Shown here one piece after another: positions 5,471 through 55,204 of a DNA stretch of 64,000 nt; position 1 is the stretch's first letter; each line of letters starts with the position of its first letter. Below the pieces are notes generated by a model. It searched no databases. It was not told where the DNA came from and was given only the letters and a program-made list of their open reading frames with translations. Both the position numbers and the translations under genes were made by a program. The stretch is from Siphonodentalium dalli (lineage: Eukaryota; Mollusca; Scaphopoda; Gadilida; Siphonodentaliidae): assembly GCA_032622095.1 (NCBI GenBank), contig CP136061.1, positions 58,731,301 through 58,795,300 on the forward strand, read 5' to 3'.

Positions 5471-5641
5471 TCTACAAACTTAATGAACCCCTGAACTTGC
5501 CCATGCAAGCCAACGACCCATGGATGTCACTGTCAGGTGATGAGGGCACTTTAGTTTTTCAGGGCAGGTTCATCTGAACCCATCAATCACAAGCTGGCTA
5601 CGCTCATGATAGTCAGTCAAGCTACATGTATATTAAACTAC

Positions 5642-5857
5642 CTTTGAACAAACATATGTATTCTTTGTAATCCTGTCGATAGTGAAGTTTTCCTGACTTC
5701 TGTTACACAGTCTGACCCAACGTAAACATCGTTCTTTGTTAGTTTTTGGCTTCGGAAATGGCCAAAATATCACTGTTGATTTACCTTTCAAATCTGGCTC
5801 CAAATTTTTTATGTAACGACTATCACTATTACAAGATGCAAACGAACACCTAGGCAT
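5642..5857 (-). CDS. THAP-type zinc-finger protein, first coding exon (copy 1)
   Basis: The exon encodes 72 residues and begins MPRCSFASCNSD. THAP domains are C2CH DNA-binding folds of P-element-related transposases and of domesticated chromatin regulators. Visible hallmarks: C-x4-C at residues 4 and 9, FWPFPKP around residue 32, the conserved Trp in CLRWVRLC, and a closing Y-V-C-S-K. The exon stops in phase 0 at AAG|GTAG. The fourth zinc ligand (His of C-x2-H) should be the first codon of exon 2, usually followed by Phe. An in-frame ATG four codons upstream (5869) is an alternative start; the inner ATG is preferred because family members align there. Exon 2 was not found. The protein could be a host regulator or the 5' end of a transposase gene. 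Confidence 0.72.
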
Positions 5858-5975
5858 CTTTAAAATCACTGAAAGAAGTTATATGATCGTGTTAACGTTA
5901 TAAACGAGCGTAAATTATGCATTATACTTTACAGGGAGGCTCTTTTGTTTAGAAAGTTGTTGGCCTTGAACTTCG

Positions 5976-6263
5976 ATAGGGGAGCACTTTGACGTTCGTA
6001 CTCATATTTCACCAATTTTTGTACCTGGCTTGCCTGTCCTAAGTTTCACGGGAAAATGGCTAATTTGATTCTATTTGTCGTTATATACATATTTATCACC
6101 CCATTTATTATTAATTTTCATAAAAATAAAATAAAAGAAGCCGAGGATGACATGTTTAAAATGTTTGAAGCATGAATTTGGCGATAAGTTGTTATCAGAG
6201 TACGCTATACTTGTGTACGTTACGCACACGGGTGTTCCCCTATCGTATTGCGATAATCGACAA
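5976..6263. mobile_element. Insertion of about 288 bp in the upstream region of THAP copy 1
   Basis: The paralogous upstream region of THAP copy 2 (14740-14905) runs straight through CCTTGAACTTCG into the CCAAT region. Here CCTTGAACTTCG occurs twice (5964-5975 and 6264-6275) around extra sequence. The extra sequence begins with ATAGGGGAGCAC. An inverted match, GTGTTCCCCTAT, lies near 6232-6243. It is either a small transposon with an unusually long 12-bp duplication or a microhomology-driven insertion. Confidence 0.6.
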
Positions 6264-6330
6264 CCTTGAACTTCGTTTACCATAACGCGATTGGTCAGTT
6301 ACCACTGTCTGTCAATAATCTGAGAGTGAC
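6264..6330 (-). promoter_or_regulatory. Conserved upstream region of THAP copy 1 with an inverted CCAAT box
   Basis: On the minus strand the segment includes CTGACCAATCGC, an NF-Y-type CCAAT box (6290-6294 on the plus strand as ATTGG). The flanking GTCAGTTACC(A/G)CTGTC(T/A)GTCAATAAT is nearly identical in THAP copy 2. Sharing outside the exon suggests a duplicated promoter. The insertion at 5976-6263 now separates it from the start codon. Confidence 0.5.
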
Positions 6331-11146: not shown

Positions 11147-11690
11147 TTATGCGATATTTCTTATTTATATACGGACAAAGTCTGTCTACATTTTGATGTT
11201 CTTTCTGTTTGTGGCGGTCTTTGACGGGTGGAAATATTTTCACAGGATACCCACCGCACCTTTAATAACACGGAAGTGATAAACTTATTACATGTGGGAA
11301 CAAATACATATTGTTTAAACTATTAGTACTTCTAACCAACTACATCCATCCATGCATTGAATAGTAACAATATGTTTGCCCTTATTTGTGTAACTTTATT
11401 AATGATGGTGAGTAAATGTTTTAGAATCACATCAAGAAACATGAGATAACCATTTGGAATCAAGCAAATACTGCAGGTTTCAACAAAAAATAAAAATAAT
11501 TCCTGAACTGAATAAAACATGATATCAACAGTTCAACAGTCATTTTCAAAAGGCTATCACACTCTCATTAAACAATTTTATTAGCTCAAATATGCATTCT
11601 GTTGAAAGGTATTAGCATAAAATCACATAAAATAAAACTTTAATACACACAAAATAAGAGATAAGTTAACAGCAATGTCCATGTTACAAA
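11147..11690. other. Intergenic, nothing recognised
   Basis: AT-rich sequence. The short minus-strand frame at 11332-11520 has no recognisable domain and is not called. Confidence 0.4.
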
Positions 11691-12560
11691 TGATTTAAAG
11701 TCCCAGTAGAAAACCGCAGCCTATTTTTTTCTACCGTGTTCAGTGTAGCGACATGTTACAATGTGTTACAAGCAGGGAAGGATCCAGGGCTCTTTTGATA
11801 CCTGTTACAGGTTTGGGCGCCCAAACTCTGGTGGCCTAAATGTCCCCAAATTGCAAGTGGATAGTTTTATTAAAGCTGAGTTTTCTATATTCTGAAGGAA
11901 ATCTTCTATTATAATTCAACAACATGCAATGCAAATCATCAATATACAGTTGATATAGAGCCTTTATTTGCTTAATCAAGTGTCCAGTGAGAAATATTTT
12001 AACCCTTTCATGACTGGGACTTCTTGAAACTTTGCAAAAATCCTGTGCCAATGCATTCTCTTATATAAATGAGAGTCTCCCATCTAAGGAGCCTCGCATA
12101 TATAAGATAATACATTGGCCTTTATCTTGACCTTGTAAGCCAGTACATTTTCTTATGTGGGATCTTTAATGCTGCACCTAAGGGAGGGGGGGCTACCCCC
12201 CGTACCTACCCCCATCTCGGGCCTACGGCCCTCGGGATATGCCTTCGACATATCATGGTCCCAAAACAGGTGTCCCCAAAAAATCCCTGGATCCATCCCT
12301 GGTTACAAGTGTTACATTATTTCTGAGATACCAAAGAGACCGCTCGTAGACGGGTGTTACAAGTGTTACAAATGATTTAAAGTGCCAGTAGAAAGCCGCA
12401 GCCTATTTTTTTCTACCGTGTTCAGTGTAGCGACATGTTACAATGTGTTACAAGTGTTACATTATTTCTGAGATACCAAAGAGACCGCTCGTAGACGGGT
12501 GTTACAAGTGTTACAAATGTTACAAATGATTTAAAGTCCCAGTAGAAAACCGCAATATAA
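11691..12560 (-). repeat. Satellite arm 1, interrupted by a hAT MITE
   Basis: The unit includes GTGTTACAAATGATTTAAAG, CCAGTAGAAA(A/G)CCGCAG, a TTTTTTTCTACCGTGTTCAG segment, TAGCGACATGTTACAATG and GAGACCGCTCGTAGACGGGT. The same unit occurs in the opposite orientation at 13380-14100. The array is broken at 11773-12301 by a hAT MITE. The next unit (12441-12459) keeps the uninterrupted junction GTGTTACAAGTGTTACATT. Confidence 0.85.
11773..12301. mobile_element. hAT-type MITE (529 bp), copy 1
   Basis: An 8-bp target duplication, GTTACAAG, lies at 11765-11772 and 12302-12309. Ends are inverted: CAGGGAAGGATCCAGGG and CCCTGGATCCATCCCTG. A second copy at 49942-50456 has a different duplication. The interior contains TTAACCCTTTCATGACTGG, resembling a piggyBac end, and a TATATAAG-rich imperfect palindrome. 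The interior may thus be an older captured fragment. A third piece lies near 36210-36290. No coding capacity is seen. Confidence 0.92.
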
Positions 12561-12920
12561 TGAAAAGCTGAGTATTTGAACATATTGATTTCGGGATTAT
12601 AATTTCTGCCACAATGGCTTAAAACTAAGTTAAAAGTAACACACCACACTGTCCCCTCCAAACCTACACTGCCCTTATAATATGTGCCATCCCTATTAGT
12701 ATATACGTGTTTGCTTTATGTTGTGGTAGTATAAATGAGTCCCATGTTTACTATCATGAAGTAAATCATGTATATCGGTATGGCACATAATGGTAGTGCA
12801 GTTGGGAGAGGGGTGTGGCAGATCAGCGAGTGCATTACAATTACCCCTGTGTTTCTGCCTTTTGCAAAGAATACATGAATTTTGTTCAATTAAATGTATT
12901 GTTCAATGAAATGTTATTGG
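12561..12920. other. Spacer between satellite arms, nothing recognised
   Basis: AT-rich sequence. The minus-strand frame ending here reads mostly through satellite sequence and is not a gene. Confidence 0.4.
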
Positions 12921-12924
12921 TTAA

Positions 12925-13294
12925 AGTGATGTGAAACACTCCGGTAGGGTGATCAGCTATAAATAGAGAATAATCTTTCTAAAAGTAGCTATTTTTACAA
13001 ATATTATATCCAAATTGACAACACACATCGTCATTCTTACATATTAATTAAATACAGTGGCTCTCGATGATTAAATTGTTTTCGTTAGTTTATCGCCGAT
13101 ATTTACATCCCGAATCGAGATGTAAATATTTACAATTCAGCGTAGTTCTGACCATGTTTTCTATGGAGTGGTACATTCGATTTGCTTTAGATATACGGCG
13201 AAGTTAGTAGAATGCTACATATTCATCCTATTGGCATAGTGCCTGAATACTAACTCATCAGTTTCTCATACCCGAACAAGTCCATAATATGTCT
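12925..13294. mobile_element. TTAA-flanked MITE, AGTGATGTGAAACAC family, copy A
   Basis: TTAA lies at 12921-12924 and 13295-13298. The left end is AGTGATGTGAAACACTC and the right end CATAATATGTCT. Relatives lie at 31321-31695 and 53843-54203. All share ATCTCGGTGGC-like or CGATGATTAAA-like centres and CCCGAATCGAGATGTAAATA. Terminal inverted repeats are very short, so the TTAA flanks are the main boundary evidence. It is non-coding. Confidence 0.85.
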
Positions 13295-13379
13295 TTAATG
13301 GAACAGATTCCAGATGGAAAATTACATAATTAAAACAGACTGGGCGACCATATTGGTCATCTAGCTTGGGCTATAGTCA

Positions 13380-14100
13380 CCATGCGGTCTACGAGCGGTC
13401 TCTCGATCTGGTATCTCATAAATAATGTAACACTTGTAACACATTGTAACATGTCGCTACACTGAACACGGTAGAAAAAAATAGGCTGCGGTTTTCTTCT
13501 GGGACTTTAAATCATGTGTAACACTTGTAACACTTGTAGCACTGTTACAAAATGCCTAGTGGAGGAAAAATGTACCGGATTCATGCAATATATGTAGATA
13601 CAAAATATGCTGCGGTTTTCTACTGGGACTTTAAATCATTTGTAACATTTGTAACACCCGTCTACGAACGGTCTCTCTGGTATCTCAGAAATAATGTAAC
13701 ACTTGTAACACATTGTAACATGTCGCTACACTGAACACGGTAGAAATAAATAGGCTGCAGTTTTCTACTGGGACTTTAAATCATTTGTAACATTTGTAAC
13801 ACTTGTAACACCCGTCTACGAGCGGTCTCTTTGGTATCTCAGAAATAATGTAACACTTGTAACACGTACATTGTAACATGTCGCTACACTGAACACGGTA
13901 GAAAAAAATAGGCTGCGGTTTTCTACTGGGACTTTAAATCATTTGTAACACCCGTCTACGAGCGGTCTCTCGATCTGGTATCTCAGAAATAATGTAACAC
14001 TTGTAACACATTGTAACATGTCGCTACACTGAACACGGTAGAAAAAAATTGGCTGCGGTTTTCTACTGGGACTTTAAATCATTTGTAACACTTGTAGCAC
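13380..14100 (+). repeat. Satellite arm 2 (inverted relative to arm 1), about four units
   Basis: Units of about 150-165 bp repeat ATTTGTAACA, CCCGTCTACGAGCGGTCTCT, GGTATCTCAGAAATAATGTA, CATGTCGCTACACTGAACAC and GGTTTTCTACTGGGACTTTA. They start near 13380, 13640, 13800 and 13945. A 60-bp block beginning TGTTACAAAATGCCTAGTGG follows the first unit (13543-13604) and recurs after the last (14101-14163), so a multi-unit segment was duplicated. The frame at 13552-13734 is a satellite artefact. Confidence 0.85.
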
Positions 14101-14109
14101 TGTTACAAA

Positions 14110-14421
14110 ATGCCTAGTGGAGGAAAAATGTACCGGATTCATGCAATATATGTAGATACAAAATTCAGTTATCCCAAACCGTCAAAAAAAATCCCGAACC
14201 AGCTGCCCGAACTGGGAAAAATGGGTAGGGTCATTTCAGAACCAAATACATTTTTTTTTACCGAAGCTCGATCTGAAAATCATTTTAAATACTGCAGAGT
14301 ATATGTTTCCTTATGTCTTGGAACAACGTATGACCATGCAAATCAACCGATAATTTTTTGTGCAGCGAGAATGCGATCAGTTATCCTGAACTGGGAAAGT
14401 GACTGTATTGAAGTTAGGTGA
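14110..14421 (+). other. Open frame of 103 codons, unrecognised, probably not a gene
   Basis: It begins MPSGGKMYRIHAIYVDTKF, inside the duplicated block that also lies at 13552, so its N-terminus is repeat-derived. The remainder shows no domain, signal peptide or membrane segment. There is no splice or promoter support. It is recorded only because it lies between the satellite and THAP copy 2. Confidence 0.15.
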
Positions 14422-14517
14422 CTTGAAATTTATGTCGTTGATGTCGCTATTCTGAAGTCATGTAAGCAAAATATATCAGTTAAAAATCCGAAATATATAT
14501 TAACTATATTAACCTAC

Positions 14518-14733
14518 CTTTGAACAAACATATGTATTCCTTGTAATCCTGTCGATATTGAAGTTCTCGTGACTTCTGTTGCACAGTCTGATCCAACGTA
14601 AACATCGTTCTTTGTTAGTTTTCGGCTTCGGAAATGCCCAAAATATCACCATTGGTTTACCGTTAGAATCTGGCTCCAAATTTTTTATATAACGACTGTC
14701 ACTATTACAAGATGAATACGCACACGTAGGCAT
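14518..14733 (-). CDS. THAP-type zinc-finger protein, first coding exon (copy 2)
   Basis: The exon has 72 codons, beginning MPTCAYSSCNSD. THAP hallmarks: C-x4-C at residues 4 and 9, FWAFPKPKTNKERCLRW with the conserved Pro and Trp, and a final Y-V-C-S-K. It ends in phase 0 at AAG|GTAGGT, a good donor. It closely resembles the exon at 5642-5857 and keeps the same upstream region without the insertion seen there. It is therefore the better preserved of the pair. The next exon, expected to start with His-Phe, was not identified at lower coordinates. THAP proteins bind DNA; whether this is a host gene or a transposase exon cannot be decided here. Confidence 0.75.
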
Positions 14734-14819
14734 CTTTAAAATCTCGGAAAGAAGTTATATTATCGTGTTAAACAGCGTTTTAAAAGGAGTGTAAATGCGT
14801 CACCGAGAGGTTCTTTTGT

Positions 14820-14905
14820 TTTGCAATGCAACGCCCTTGAACTTCGTTCGCTATAATGCGATTGGTCAGTTACCGCTGTCAGTCAATAATTTGAGATTCG
14901 TCAAT
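14820..14905 (-). promoter_or_regulatory. Upstream region of THAP copy 2 with an inverted CCAAT box
   Basis: The CCAAT box reads ATTGG at 14861-14865 on the plus strand, about 130 bp upstream of the minus-strand ATG at 14733. The flanking sequence matches 6264-6330. No TATA box was identified. The role is inferred from duplication and position. Confidence 0.5.
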
Positions 14906-31789: not shown

Positions 31790-32084
31790 AAGGTCCATCT
31801 CAACTTTCCAACTCATGACATAGCTCAGGCATGGAAACACCTTAACTAATTTGCTAACTACAAAAATATGTATACACACAAGCCCTCTACATGGGAAATT
31901 CAAAAAAAAAATGGCTGATTACATGCTATATTCCAGATTCTGTTTGGCGGTTTGTCATTGTTCCACATATCCCATCCCATTTCGCAAAAAACATGATTAC
32001 ATTTCAACCCATTTCAGACCCCATACAGCTGCATTTGTCCCGACTTCCTGCTATTACTGTTAACTGTTGTGTACCATACTTACC
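31790..32084. other. Intergenic, nothing recognised
   Basis: Two overlapping 70-codon frames lack motifs. This region would hold any intron of the THAP pseudogene at 32085-32301. Confidence 0.35.
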
Positions 32085-32301
32085 TTTGAACAGACGTATG
32101 TAGTTTTTTAAATTCTGTTACATGGTAAAGTAGAGTGCTGCTATTAATTAGTTTCATCCAACGTAAACAACGCTCATTATTAGTTTTTGGCTTTGGAAAT
32201 GGCCAAAAGGCCACTGTTGGTGTTCCACTCGAATCAAACTCTAATCTTTCTGGATAACGGTTGTCAGTGTGACTATTTGGATAAGCGCACCTTTTAGGCA
32301 T
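32085..32301 (-). pseudogene. THAP-type first exon (copy 3), degenerate
   Basis: The frame starts MPKRCAYPNSHTDNRY and keeps VAFWPFPKPKTNNERCLRW, the THAP core with the conserved Pro and Trp. Two defects are visible. The second zinc Cys is replaced by Ser (C-A-Y-P-N-S). A one-base shift late in the exon moves the closing Y-V-C-S-K into another frame. The donor after it, AAG|GTAAGT, is still a perfect consensus. It is probably a decayed relative of the copies at 5.7 and 14.6 kb. A sequencing or assembly error could explain the shift but not the lost ligand. Confidence 0.65.
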
Positions 32302-36529: not shown

Positions 36530-37270
36530 TTTAAAGATACTGAAAAAAAAAAGTTAACAAAAAAAACAACCAACTTTGGTTCAGATCAAATAATCCAAAA
36601 TGGAGTTATCGGTCGAAAACCAAAAATGTTAACGGACGGACTGACGGCCGGACAGACGGACGGACAGACTGATAACATAATACAACCTTTTTTCAAAAAT
36701 GGCGTATAAAAATCAAACAAAAAGCACAAACACAATATACAATACAAATATACAGAAGTCTGTGGGGGTCACCTAATCGCATTTCGACGGTCAAATTATA
36801 AATCGAAAAAGGGCTGTAACTCATGTAAAAATAATTGGACGGAACCCATATTCGAACTTGGCCTGTATCTTTAGCTGGGAAATACACATACCAACTTTGG
36901 TTCAGATCAAATAATCCAAACTGGAGTTATCGGTCGGAAACCAAAAATGTTAACAGACGGTCAAATTCTAAATCGAAAAAGGGCTGTAACTCATGTAAAA
37001 ATAATTGGACGGAACCCATATTCGAACTTGGCCTGTATCTTTAGCTGGGAAATACACATACCAACTTTGGTTCAGATCAAATAATCCAAACTGGAGTTAT
37101 CGATCGGAAACCAAAAATGTTAACGGACGGACTGACGGCCGGACAGACGGACGGACAGACTGATAACATAATACAACCTTTTTTCAAAAATGGCGTATAA
37201 AAATCAAACAAAAAGCACAAATACAATATACAATACAAATATACAGAAGTCTGTGGGGGTCACCCAATCG
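36530..37270 (+). repeat. Second array of the same style, with a large internal duplication
   Basis: Units share AAAAAGGGCTGTAACTCATG, TAATTGGACGGAACCCATAT, TCGAACTTGGCCTGTATCTT and GGAGTTATCGGTCGGAAACC. The tail GACGGACTGACGGCCGGACA with GACGG repeats, followed by CAACCTTTTTTCAAAAATGG, occurs at about 36632-36700 and again at 37120-37190. The two tail regions are nearly identical, so this duplication is recent. Confidence 0.75.
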
Positions 37271-37622
37271 CATTTCGATTCGCCCTATGGACATAATCGA
37301 GCCCAATACTGCTGATACACACTGATTCTGTATTGATAATCTATATCTATATAACGTTTAAACACGCTGACCTTATATTACCTTTACTCACTGCATCCCA
37401 ATTCCAAAATGTTATATTTGGAGGATTTACTTTGTGAAATACATACGGTACAACCCCCAGCCCTACCCAACAAACTTGTCATCTCAGGATTTTTTTTTCT
37501 TTCAGAAACAGTGGTTGTTGTTCACATGCGGTGGGTGTTATTCTGCCCTTAAAATTTTAAAGATCATGTTTTTGTGAAAAGATCGGCAACTATAGTAATA
37601 CTAGTATAAATTATAGACATAC
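37271..37622. other. Intergenic; would contain the start of THAP copy 4 intron 1
   Basis: No exon with the expected His-Phe start was identified on the minus strand. Nothing else is recognised. Confidence 0.35.
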
Positions 37623-37832
37623 CTTCGAACACACGTATCTGTTCTTTGATGCCGGTTTGTATAACAACTCCAGATTTAGCTGATCGTGTGGTCGTCCACA
37701 ACATGTTATCCATCGCAAACACTTCTCAATGTCAACTTTCGGCTTTGCAAATGGAATAAAAGTCACTCCGATACATCTATCAGGGTAACGATTATCGGTG
37801 TTACACCTCCCATGGCTGCACTTTTTCACCAT
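37623..37832 (-). CDS. THAP-type zinc-finger protein, first coding exon (copy 4)
   Basis: The exon has 70 codons, starting MVKKCSHGRCNTDNRY. THAP features: C-x4-C at residues 5 and 10, FIPFAKPKVDIEKCLRW with the conserved Pro and Trp, and terminal Y-V-C-S-K. It ends in phase 0 at AAG|GTATGT. It is more diverged from copies 1 and 2 than they are from each other, and its upstream region is not shared. The missing zinc His should start exon 2, which was not found. It is either a member of a local THAP gene family or a transposase remnant. Confidence 0.7.
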
Positions 37833-38209
37833 TTTATGAAAATCCGACTCAGCTTTGAAATATTCTGGAGCACATCGAACAAATTATCCAATTGAACTGA
37901 TAACAAAACAAACGAGATCTCTCGCCGGGCATCGAAATTAATCACCAAACCAGGAATAAATGACAACATTTTCTGATTGGATGATAAGGTGATGCACGGA
38001 TACTTTGTATGAAATTTAATAGTCTTGCTAATTACACAAAAAATTATGTTTAATCCGAACAAACATCTGCCGATATTACTGTTGCTACGCTAGTAAACAA
38101 ACATTGATGTCTTACCGGAAATCACACTAGGCTCTCAGTGAATAGATGCCGTTATCTGATTGGATCATGCCGATATCTGCCGATATCTGCCGAAGCGTCA
38201 ATTAATGAA
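37833..38209. other. Intergenic upstream of THAP copy 4
   Basis: This would hold the promoter of copy 4. No TATA or CCAAT box was identified confidently. A 10-bp direct repeat, CGATATCTGC, occurs near 38170-38190. Confidence 0.35.
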
Positions 38210-44148: not shown

Positions 44149-44628
44149 ATCGCTCTACATAAGCGTGGCCAGACCTATCATCGAATACTGTTACTCTGCA
44201 TGGAGCCACGTCACAAATATCAAAGCATATTGTGCTAGAGCAATACAAAGAAAAGCAACGAAACTAGTTCGTCAAATCAAAACTATATGCTACCGAGACC
44301 GAGTGATAAGACTCAATCTGATGTCTTTAAAATATCGAAGATTTAGAGGAGAGCTATCGAGGTATATAAACTGTTGAATAGTCATTACAACATCAATGCC
44401 TGTGACCTATTAGAAAGACATTCATCAGGAAGAACAAGAGGGCATAATAAAAAGTTACAGATGCCCATTGTTAACAAGGCCATAGGAAAATATTTCTTCA
44501 CGCAGAGGGTGGTAAATAGCTGGAACACTCTGCCAGACTTCGCTGTTGAGGCTCCAACACTCGATCAATTCAAAATATACATAGACTCATTCCTCTATTA
44601 TATAAAATACGTGTTCGACGACAAGTAA
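44149..44628 (+). pseudogene. Non-LTR retrotransposon reverse transcriptase, C-terminal remnant with a frameshift
   Basis: Upstream frame: LYISVARPIIEYCYSAW, then QRKATKLVRQIK, RVIRLNLMSLKYRRFRGE. After a one-base shift near 44355-44365: EVYKLLNSHY, SGRTRGHNKKL, FFTQRVVNSWNTLPDFAVEA. This order (RP-x-x-EYC-x-x-W, R-x-ATK, RL-x-L-x-x-L-x-YRR-x-RG, VYK-x-L, RGH-x-x-KL, F-x-x-RV-x-x-WN-x-LP) is the thumb and C-terminal part of Jockey/CR1-type LINE reverse transcriptases. Catalytic motifs and the endonuclease are absent, so it is 5'-truncated and dead. Confidence 0.88.
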
Positions 44629-54836: not shown

Positions 54837-54996
54837 TCGCTTTGAGCTTCCCCAGCAACGCGCGGCCGATCTCTCCTCTCACTCAGTGTTCGCCTTATCG
54901 TTGTGGGAAGTGTTTTCTGTTTAGCTCGGAGAACTCTTGGTTTTGGGAATTCCTTTATTTCGTTGGGTTCATTGAAGGGAGTTAATTGTTTTCAGA

Positions 54997-55204
54997 ATGG
55001 CAGAGCAAGAGCAAGTTGTCGAACAACCGGAACAACCGGCCGTCGATCCAAAAATGGAGGAACTGGAGGCTTTGTTCAAAAAGATTCAAGATTCAGAAGA
55101 TTGCAAGTCGCTTTTGAAGAAAAATTTGACGAAAGAAATTTTCGAAAAGCTGAAAAGCAAGAAGACATCACTGGGTGGAACGCTCGCTGATTGTATCAAA
55201 TCAG
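54997..55204 (+). CDS. Arginine kinase, first coding exon (gene continues beyond the window)
   Basis: Arginine kinase (EC 2.7.3.3) transfers phosphate between ATP and arginine, buffering ATP in invertebrate muscle and other cytoplasm. The exon encodes 69 residues plus one base. Residues 1-19 are an acidic Glu/Gln/Pro-rich extension (MAEQEQVVEQPEQPAVDPK). EELEALFKKIQDSEDCKSLL, KKNLTKEIFEKLKSKKTS and LGGTLADCIKSG follow, the typical N-terminal alpha-helical domain of phosphagen kinases. The start has A at -3 and G at +4. The exon ends in TCAG|GTAAGT, phase 1, splitting the Gly codon after KS. TTGTTTTCAG immediately before AATGG also resembles an acceptor, so a 5'-UTR intron is possible. The phosphate-binding and catalytic regions are in exons outside the window. 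Confidence 0.93.

Follow-up and report, generated by a model that had tools for sequence, protein, structure and literature searches.

Do closely spaced THAP exons mark a family of host genes, or do they belong to mobile elements? The question is raised by a 64,000-nucleotide stretch of the 2.23-Gb genome of Siphonodentalium dalli (C1:58731301-58795300), referred to here as the window, in which the minus strand carries four THAP first exons. A preliminary description had listed four such exons, three of them intact, with a common phase-0 donor after Cys-Ser-Lys. All four are present, and copies 1, 2 and 4 are open from the ATG to a phase-0 GT donor directly after this motif (Table 1). The donor positions given for these copies (5642, 14518 and 37623) are correct, while that of copy 3, given as 32085, is one base off. 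Judged from sequence, the four exons are almost certainly remnants of ISL2EU (PHIS superfamily) cut-and-paste DNA transposons. By homology, two ISL2EU families are represented, family A by copies 1 and 2 and family B by copy 4, with copy 3 as a divergent relative.

Table 1 THAP exons and element parts in the window (window coordinates).
Feature	Position	Strand	Remarks
Copy 1, THAP exon 1	5642-5857	-	72-aa open frame with phase-0 donor behind CSK; ISL2EU family A
Copy 1, element body (5' region and exon 1)	5629-5975	-	Matches family A loci at 83-91% (blastn)
Copy 1, 5' subterminal piece	6264-6325	-	Outermost TGACGAAC bases gone
Copy 2, THAP exon 1	14518-14733	-	72-aa open frame with phase-0 donor; subfamily A2 of family A
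Copy 2, element 5' part	14159-14903	-	Terminal repeat TGACGAATCTC adjoining flank ...CCAAT
Insert splitting copy 2	11680-14158		~2.48 kb, rich in inverted and tandem repeats; junctions compared with L044
Copy 2, element continuation	11260-11679	-	98.6% identical to non-autonomous copy L044
Copy 3, decayed THAP exon 1	32084-32301	-	Frameshift and in-frame stop; divergent family A relative
Copy 4, THAP exon 1	37623-37832	-	70-aa open frame with phase-0 donor; ISL2EU family B
Copy 4, element 5' part	37551-38200	-	Starts TGACGCTTCGGC beside flank ...TTAAT
Copy 4, further sequence	37199-37544	-	Common to family B copies L058, L060 and L070; interrupted by nested repeats; 3' terminus not located

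The copy 1 exon encodes the peptide MPRCSFASC...YVCSK and is followed by the donor GTAGTT. Copy 2 is 82% identical to it and ends at the donor GTAGGTT, and copy 4, with the donor GTATGT, shares 41% identity with the other window exons. In copy 3 (50% amino acid identity to copy 1) the frameshift and the stop sit close to the end of the exon; this copy is placed by homology only, with no close sibling and ~55-64% identity to family A exons. The Pfam THAP domain (PF05485) is detected above the cut-off in copy 1 (25.1 bits, E 3e-5) and copy 2 (26.1 bits, E 1e-5). Copy 4 alone falls below the cut-off, and its homology to copies 1 and 2 is clear (tblastn E 4e-13). Similarly, family B exon 1 scores a sub-threshold 17.5 bits against PF05485, yet is homologous. 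The window exons contain the first half of the C2CH finger, with two Cys residues and a third contributed by CSK. The last His of the finger would be supplied by exon 2.

Relatives of these exons are found throughout the genome. Copy 1 has dozens, at 75-88% amino acid identity, dispersed over all nine contigs. The 5' part of the copy 2 element recurs, complete or nearly so, in ~20 further copies with 92-97% DNA identity. The exon of copy 4 recurs unchanged 690 kb away on its own contig (C1:59458871) and at 93-96% identity on C1, C2 and C6, and tens of shorter derivatives retain just the first ~38-39 codons. Going by this distribution, the window exons are dispersed repeats and not a local gene family; the pattern is far beyond chance, because each open copy has many relatives on all nine contigs.

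A multi-exon THAP transposase, with a second exon starting with His-Phe and a DDE/RNase-H core farther downstream, had been suggested as one origin of the exons. Full-length relatives elsewhere in the genome, outside the window, bear out each of these elements. In the long family A copies L041, L042 and L043, exon 2 lies downstream of exon 1 behind the acceptor AG|CATTTT and encodes HFVDKKGPTVEFPDPLPADPHTPKPHK (L043 has HC in place of HF). In general form the exon 2 acceptor is AG|CAYTTY, with HFVDKKGPTVEFPDPLPAD encoded behind it, and family B exon 2 encodes HFHGAKGPTDEYPDPVPADPYTP. A later exon of family A matches HTH_Tnp_4 (PF13613, E 4e-15) and DDE_Tnp_4 (PF13359, E 7e-39). Intron 2 of family A holds an antisense ORF with a YqaJ domain (PF09588, E 6e-18). 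A family B copy at C2:191050111-191054767 is organised in the same way; its DDE exon (382 aa) and its YqaJ ORF (269 aa) are both open. The family B core matches DDE_Tnp_4 (E 1e-38), and HTH_Tnp_4 is above the cut-off as well. The cores of the two families are 51% identical, and the 269-aa YqaJ ORF is ~52% identical to the YqaJ of family A. Long copies span 5.8-6.7 kb, inserts included. When the exons are joined by matching splice signals and phase, and by protein homology, the predicted transposase gene has at least three exons: one for the THAP half-domain, one with the His-Phe start that would finish the C2CH zinc finger, and one for the HTH and DDE core.

DNA comparison of six copies defined the common ends of family A. 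They read TGACGAACCTC and TGGCGAACCTC, the latter in inverted form at the 3' end, and constitute a terminal repeat of ~11 bp with one mismatch. In family A, AT flanks are present at all 17 of the 5' ends and all four of the 3' ends, and likewise at all seven ends of family B, whose termini are known from the 5' side only, with the 3' end not located. The base preceding the flanking AT is A in all but one of these 28 termini, while bases farther out vary. The joined flanks of the full-length elements L042 and L041 were searched against the genome. Nine paralogous empty sites of the two family A insertions each contain a single AT, compared with two flanking the element. The target is thus A|AT|T, with a 2-bp duplication of AT. 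At another insertion site, that of L045 (C7:154003150-154013149), a non-autonomous family A element is centred in a ~75-bp near-perfect palindrome.

ISL2EU elements are defined by an AT duplication at A|AT|T and by two ORFs, one with THAP, HTH and DDE domains and one with YqaJ (PMC4482050; PMC9179366). The AT duplication within A|AT|T is seen here in the empty sites of family A and the termini of both families. Both also have a YqaJ second ORF, and domain matches and homology indicate a THAP/HTH/DDE transposase in each. Published ISL2EU elements have a mean length of ~4.8 kb (PMC4482050, PMC9179366) and terminal inverted repeats of 6-259 bp, mostly beginning with GG (PMC4482050). The terminal repeat found here is short, although inside this range, and starts with TG instead of GG. 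What is new is at least two ISL2EU families, of a kind that is already known.

The exons had also been proposed to be the DNA-binding ends of the transposases by which the TTAA-targeting MITEs of the window move. This would point to Kolobok, a cut-and-paste system whose transposases, too, carry a THAP domain and which targets TTAA. A Kolobok lineage is reported from several animal phyla (PMC9587614). However, the elements duplicate AT at A|AT|T where Kolobok has TTAA, and the gene content differs, with a core of DDE_Tnp_4 and HTH_Tnp_4 and a YqaJ domain in the second ORF. We therefore regard a Kolobok-type origin as extremely improbable, and the proposed connection to the MITEs does not hold. 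The AT duplication evident from the empty sites rules out TTAA targeting of either the Kolobok or the piggyBac type in family A. Multi-exon transposases with an N-terminal THAP domain and truncated derivatives are also found in the P element and THAP9. P elements duplicate 8 bp and use another catalytic domain, whereas AT duplications and DDE_Tnp_4 are found here. No P-element domain is present among the Pfam matches.

The copies in the window differ from complete ISL2EU members. They are non-autonomous relics without exon 2, core and YqaJ, and exon 1 is the only coding part retained. A homology search of the window and the 8 kb to its left detected no exon 2, DDE core or YqaJ, while all three were scored in a control locus. 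Searching the window for exon 2 by acceptor and His-Phe start returned two chance frames only, and four cores from different subfamilies gave no DDE core in the window. The similarity of copy 1 to family A ends ~13 bp past the donor, and a 288-bp insert (5976-6263) separates the element body from the 5' subterminal piece. Copy 2 keeps its 5' terminus (14903) and stops at 11260, with the 3' terminus absent. It is 96-98.6% identical to L044, a 1.96-kb non-autonomous element. The sequence that splits copy 2 contains several inverted copies of 90-260 bp and a 140-bp tandem array; it is probably another non-autonomous element. The 5' part of copy 4, with its terminus at 38200, is 93% identical to a complete-looking family B element on C2.

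These observations bear on the other origin put forward in the preliminary description, host THAP genes expanded into a family, or THAP transposases that became domesticated. In that case, exon 2 would lie farther downstream. Such genes would account for the open frames and good donors of three of the four exons, and for their clustering on one strand within 32 kb, with a fifth exon outside. However, the exons are enclosed in elements that have defined ends, terminal repeats and AT duplications, and exon 2 and the core are absent from the window and the 8 kb beyond. The nearest relatives are mostly on other chromosomes. Most copies lack a core: any core piece within 9 kb downstream was found for 9 of 41 family A exon-1 copies, a rough count in that the genome searches score only the best candidates.

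Substitution patterns differ between the subfamilies of family A. Compared with their consensus, nine near-identical copies of A2 exon 1 carry 11 nonsynonymous changes and 1 synonymous change. There is no sign of purifying selection on exon 1 in these recent, mostly non-autonomous copies, in a test of low power that covers 12 differences, includes two copies located in longer elements and ranks by protein similarity, which favours intact copies. The A2 exon thus appears unconstrained, which argues against host genes and domesticated derivatives alike. In family A1, exon 1 has a dN/dS of about 0.38 relative to the consensus, with a skew to synonymous sites. This ratio would suit host genes, but descent through active transposases would also be expected to produce it. 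We consider a host origin of the window exons, by expansion or by domestication, highly improbable.

The clustering itself exceeds uniform scatter. Among the 150 family A-like exons listed, 0.5 pairs less than 50 kb apart are expected genome-wide under uniform scatter, and the window alone contains three, its three family-A-like copies lying within 27 kb. The shared strand of the four exons is weak evidence (1 in 8 by chance). Because the copies fall in different families or subfamilies with near relatives elsewhere, we infer that independent insertions into a transposon-rich region explain the clustering better than tandem duplication. The fifth THAP exon 1 (L081, C1:58724851-58725021) lies on the minus strand 6.3 kb to the left of the window. 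With 42-46% identity to families A and B, it represents a further subfamily, apparently with dispersed relatives of its own. A separate, dead family of THAP repeats (G000; L014, L016, L019 and L020) has several dozen copies, with one TGA and two TAG codons in common in a 149-aa frame.

By analogy with known families, the THAP domain, together with the HTH, would bind the element ends, the DDE core would cut and join the DNA, and YqaJ would help transposition in some way. The non-autonomous copies would have moved with the enzyme from complete copies. Those in the window, now truncated, split by inserts or frameshifted, could at most have been mobilised from elsewhere, for example by the family B copy on C2, in which both the DDE exon and the YqaJ ORF are open.

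Many copies that have no core close by still carry exon 1 and its donor intact. It is conceivable that non-autonomous copies were kept as THAP-only repressors of transposition, similar to the KP derivative of the P element, or that exon 1 and the donor are spliced into host genes. The unconstrained exon 1 of recent copies speaks against such a role. Furthermore, readthrough past the donor reaches a stop in a few codons without the exon-2 histidine, so that no complete C2CH finger would form. We regard retention for either function as very unlikely. In remnants of ISL2EU elements, exon 1 and the donor would most simply be retained through their adjacency to the element 5' end, and not through use of the peptide. 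A related and similarly doubtful idea is that internally deleted ISL2EU elements serve as mobile THAP-exon cassettes, in which the donor joins host exons and gives rise to repeated THAP fusions, or to a short transposition regulator. If this were true, every new insertion would deliver a DNA-binding exon that is open and already equipped with a phase-0 donor.

For annotation, the THAP exons of the window are best treated as ISL2EU transposon sequence and not as host THAP genes, and their link to TTAA is removed. Our analysis adds an ISL2EU family A with both ends and empty sites, and a family B with an open DDE exon and YqaJ ORF. Many non-autonomous copies have spread carrying an intact DNA-binding exon and splice donor.

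Other features of the window were also recorded. A search for tRNAs in the window found none. On the plus strand, positions 44347-44628 encode a peptide that by eye resembles the C terminus of a LINE reverse transcriptase. An ORF at 54976-55200, also on the plus strand, begins like an N-terminal exon of arginine kinase (MAEQEQ..., by eye) and is possibly a host gene of the region.
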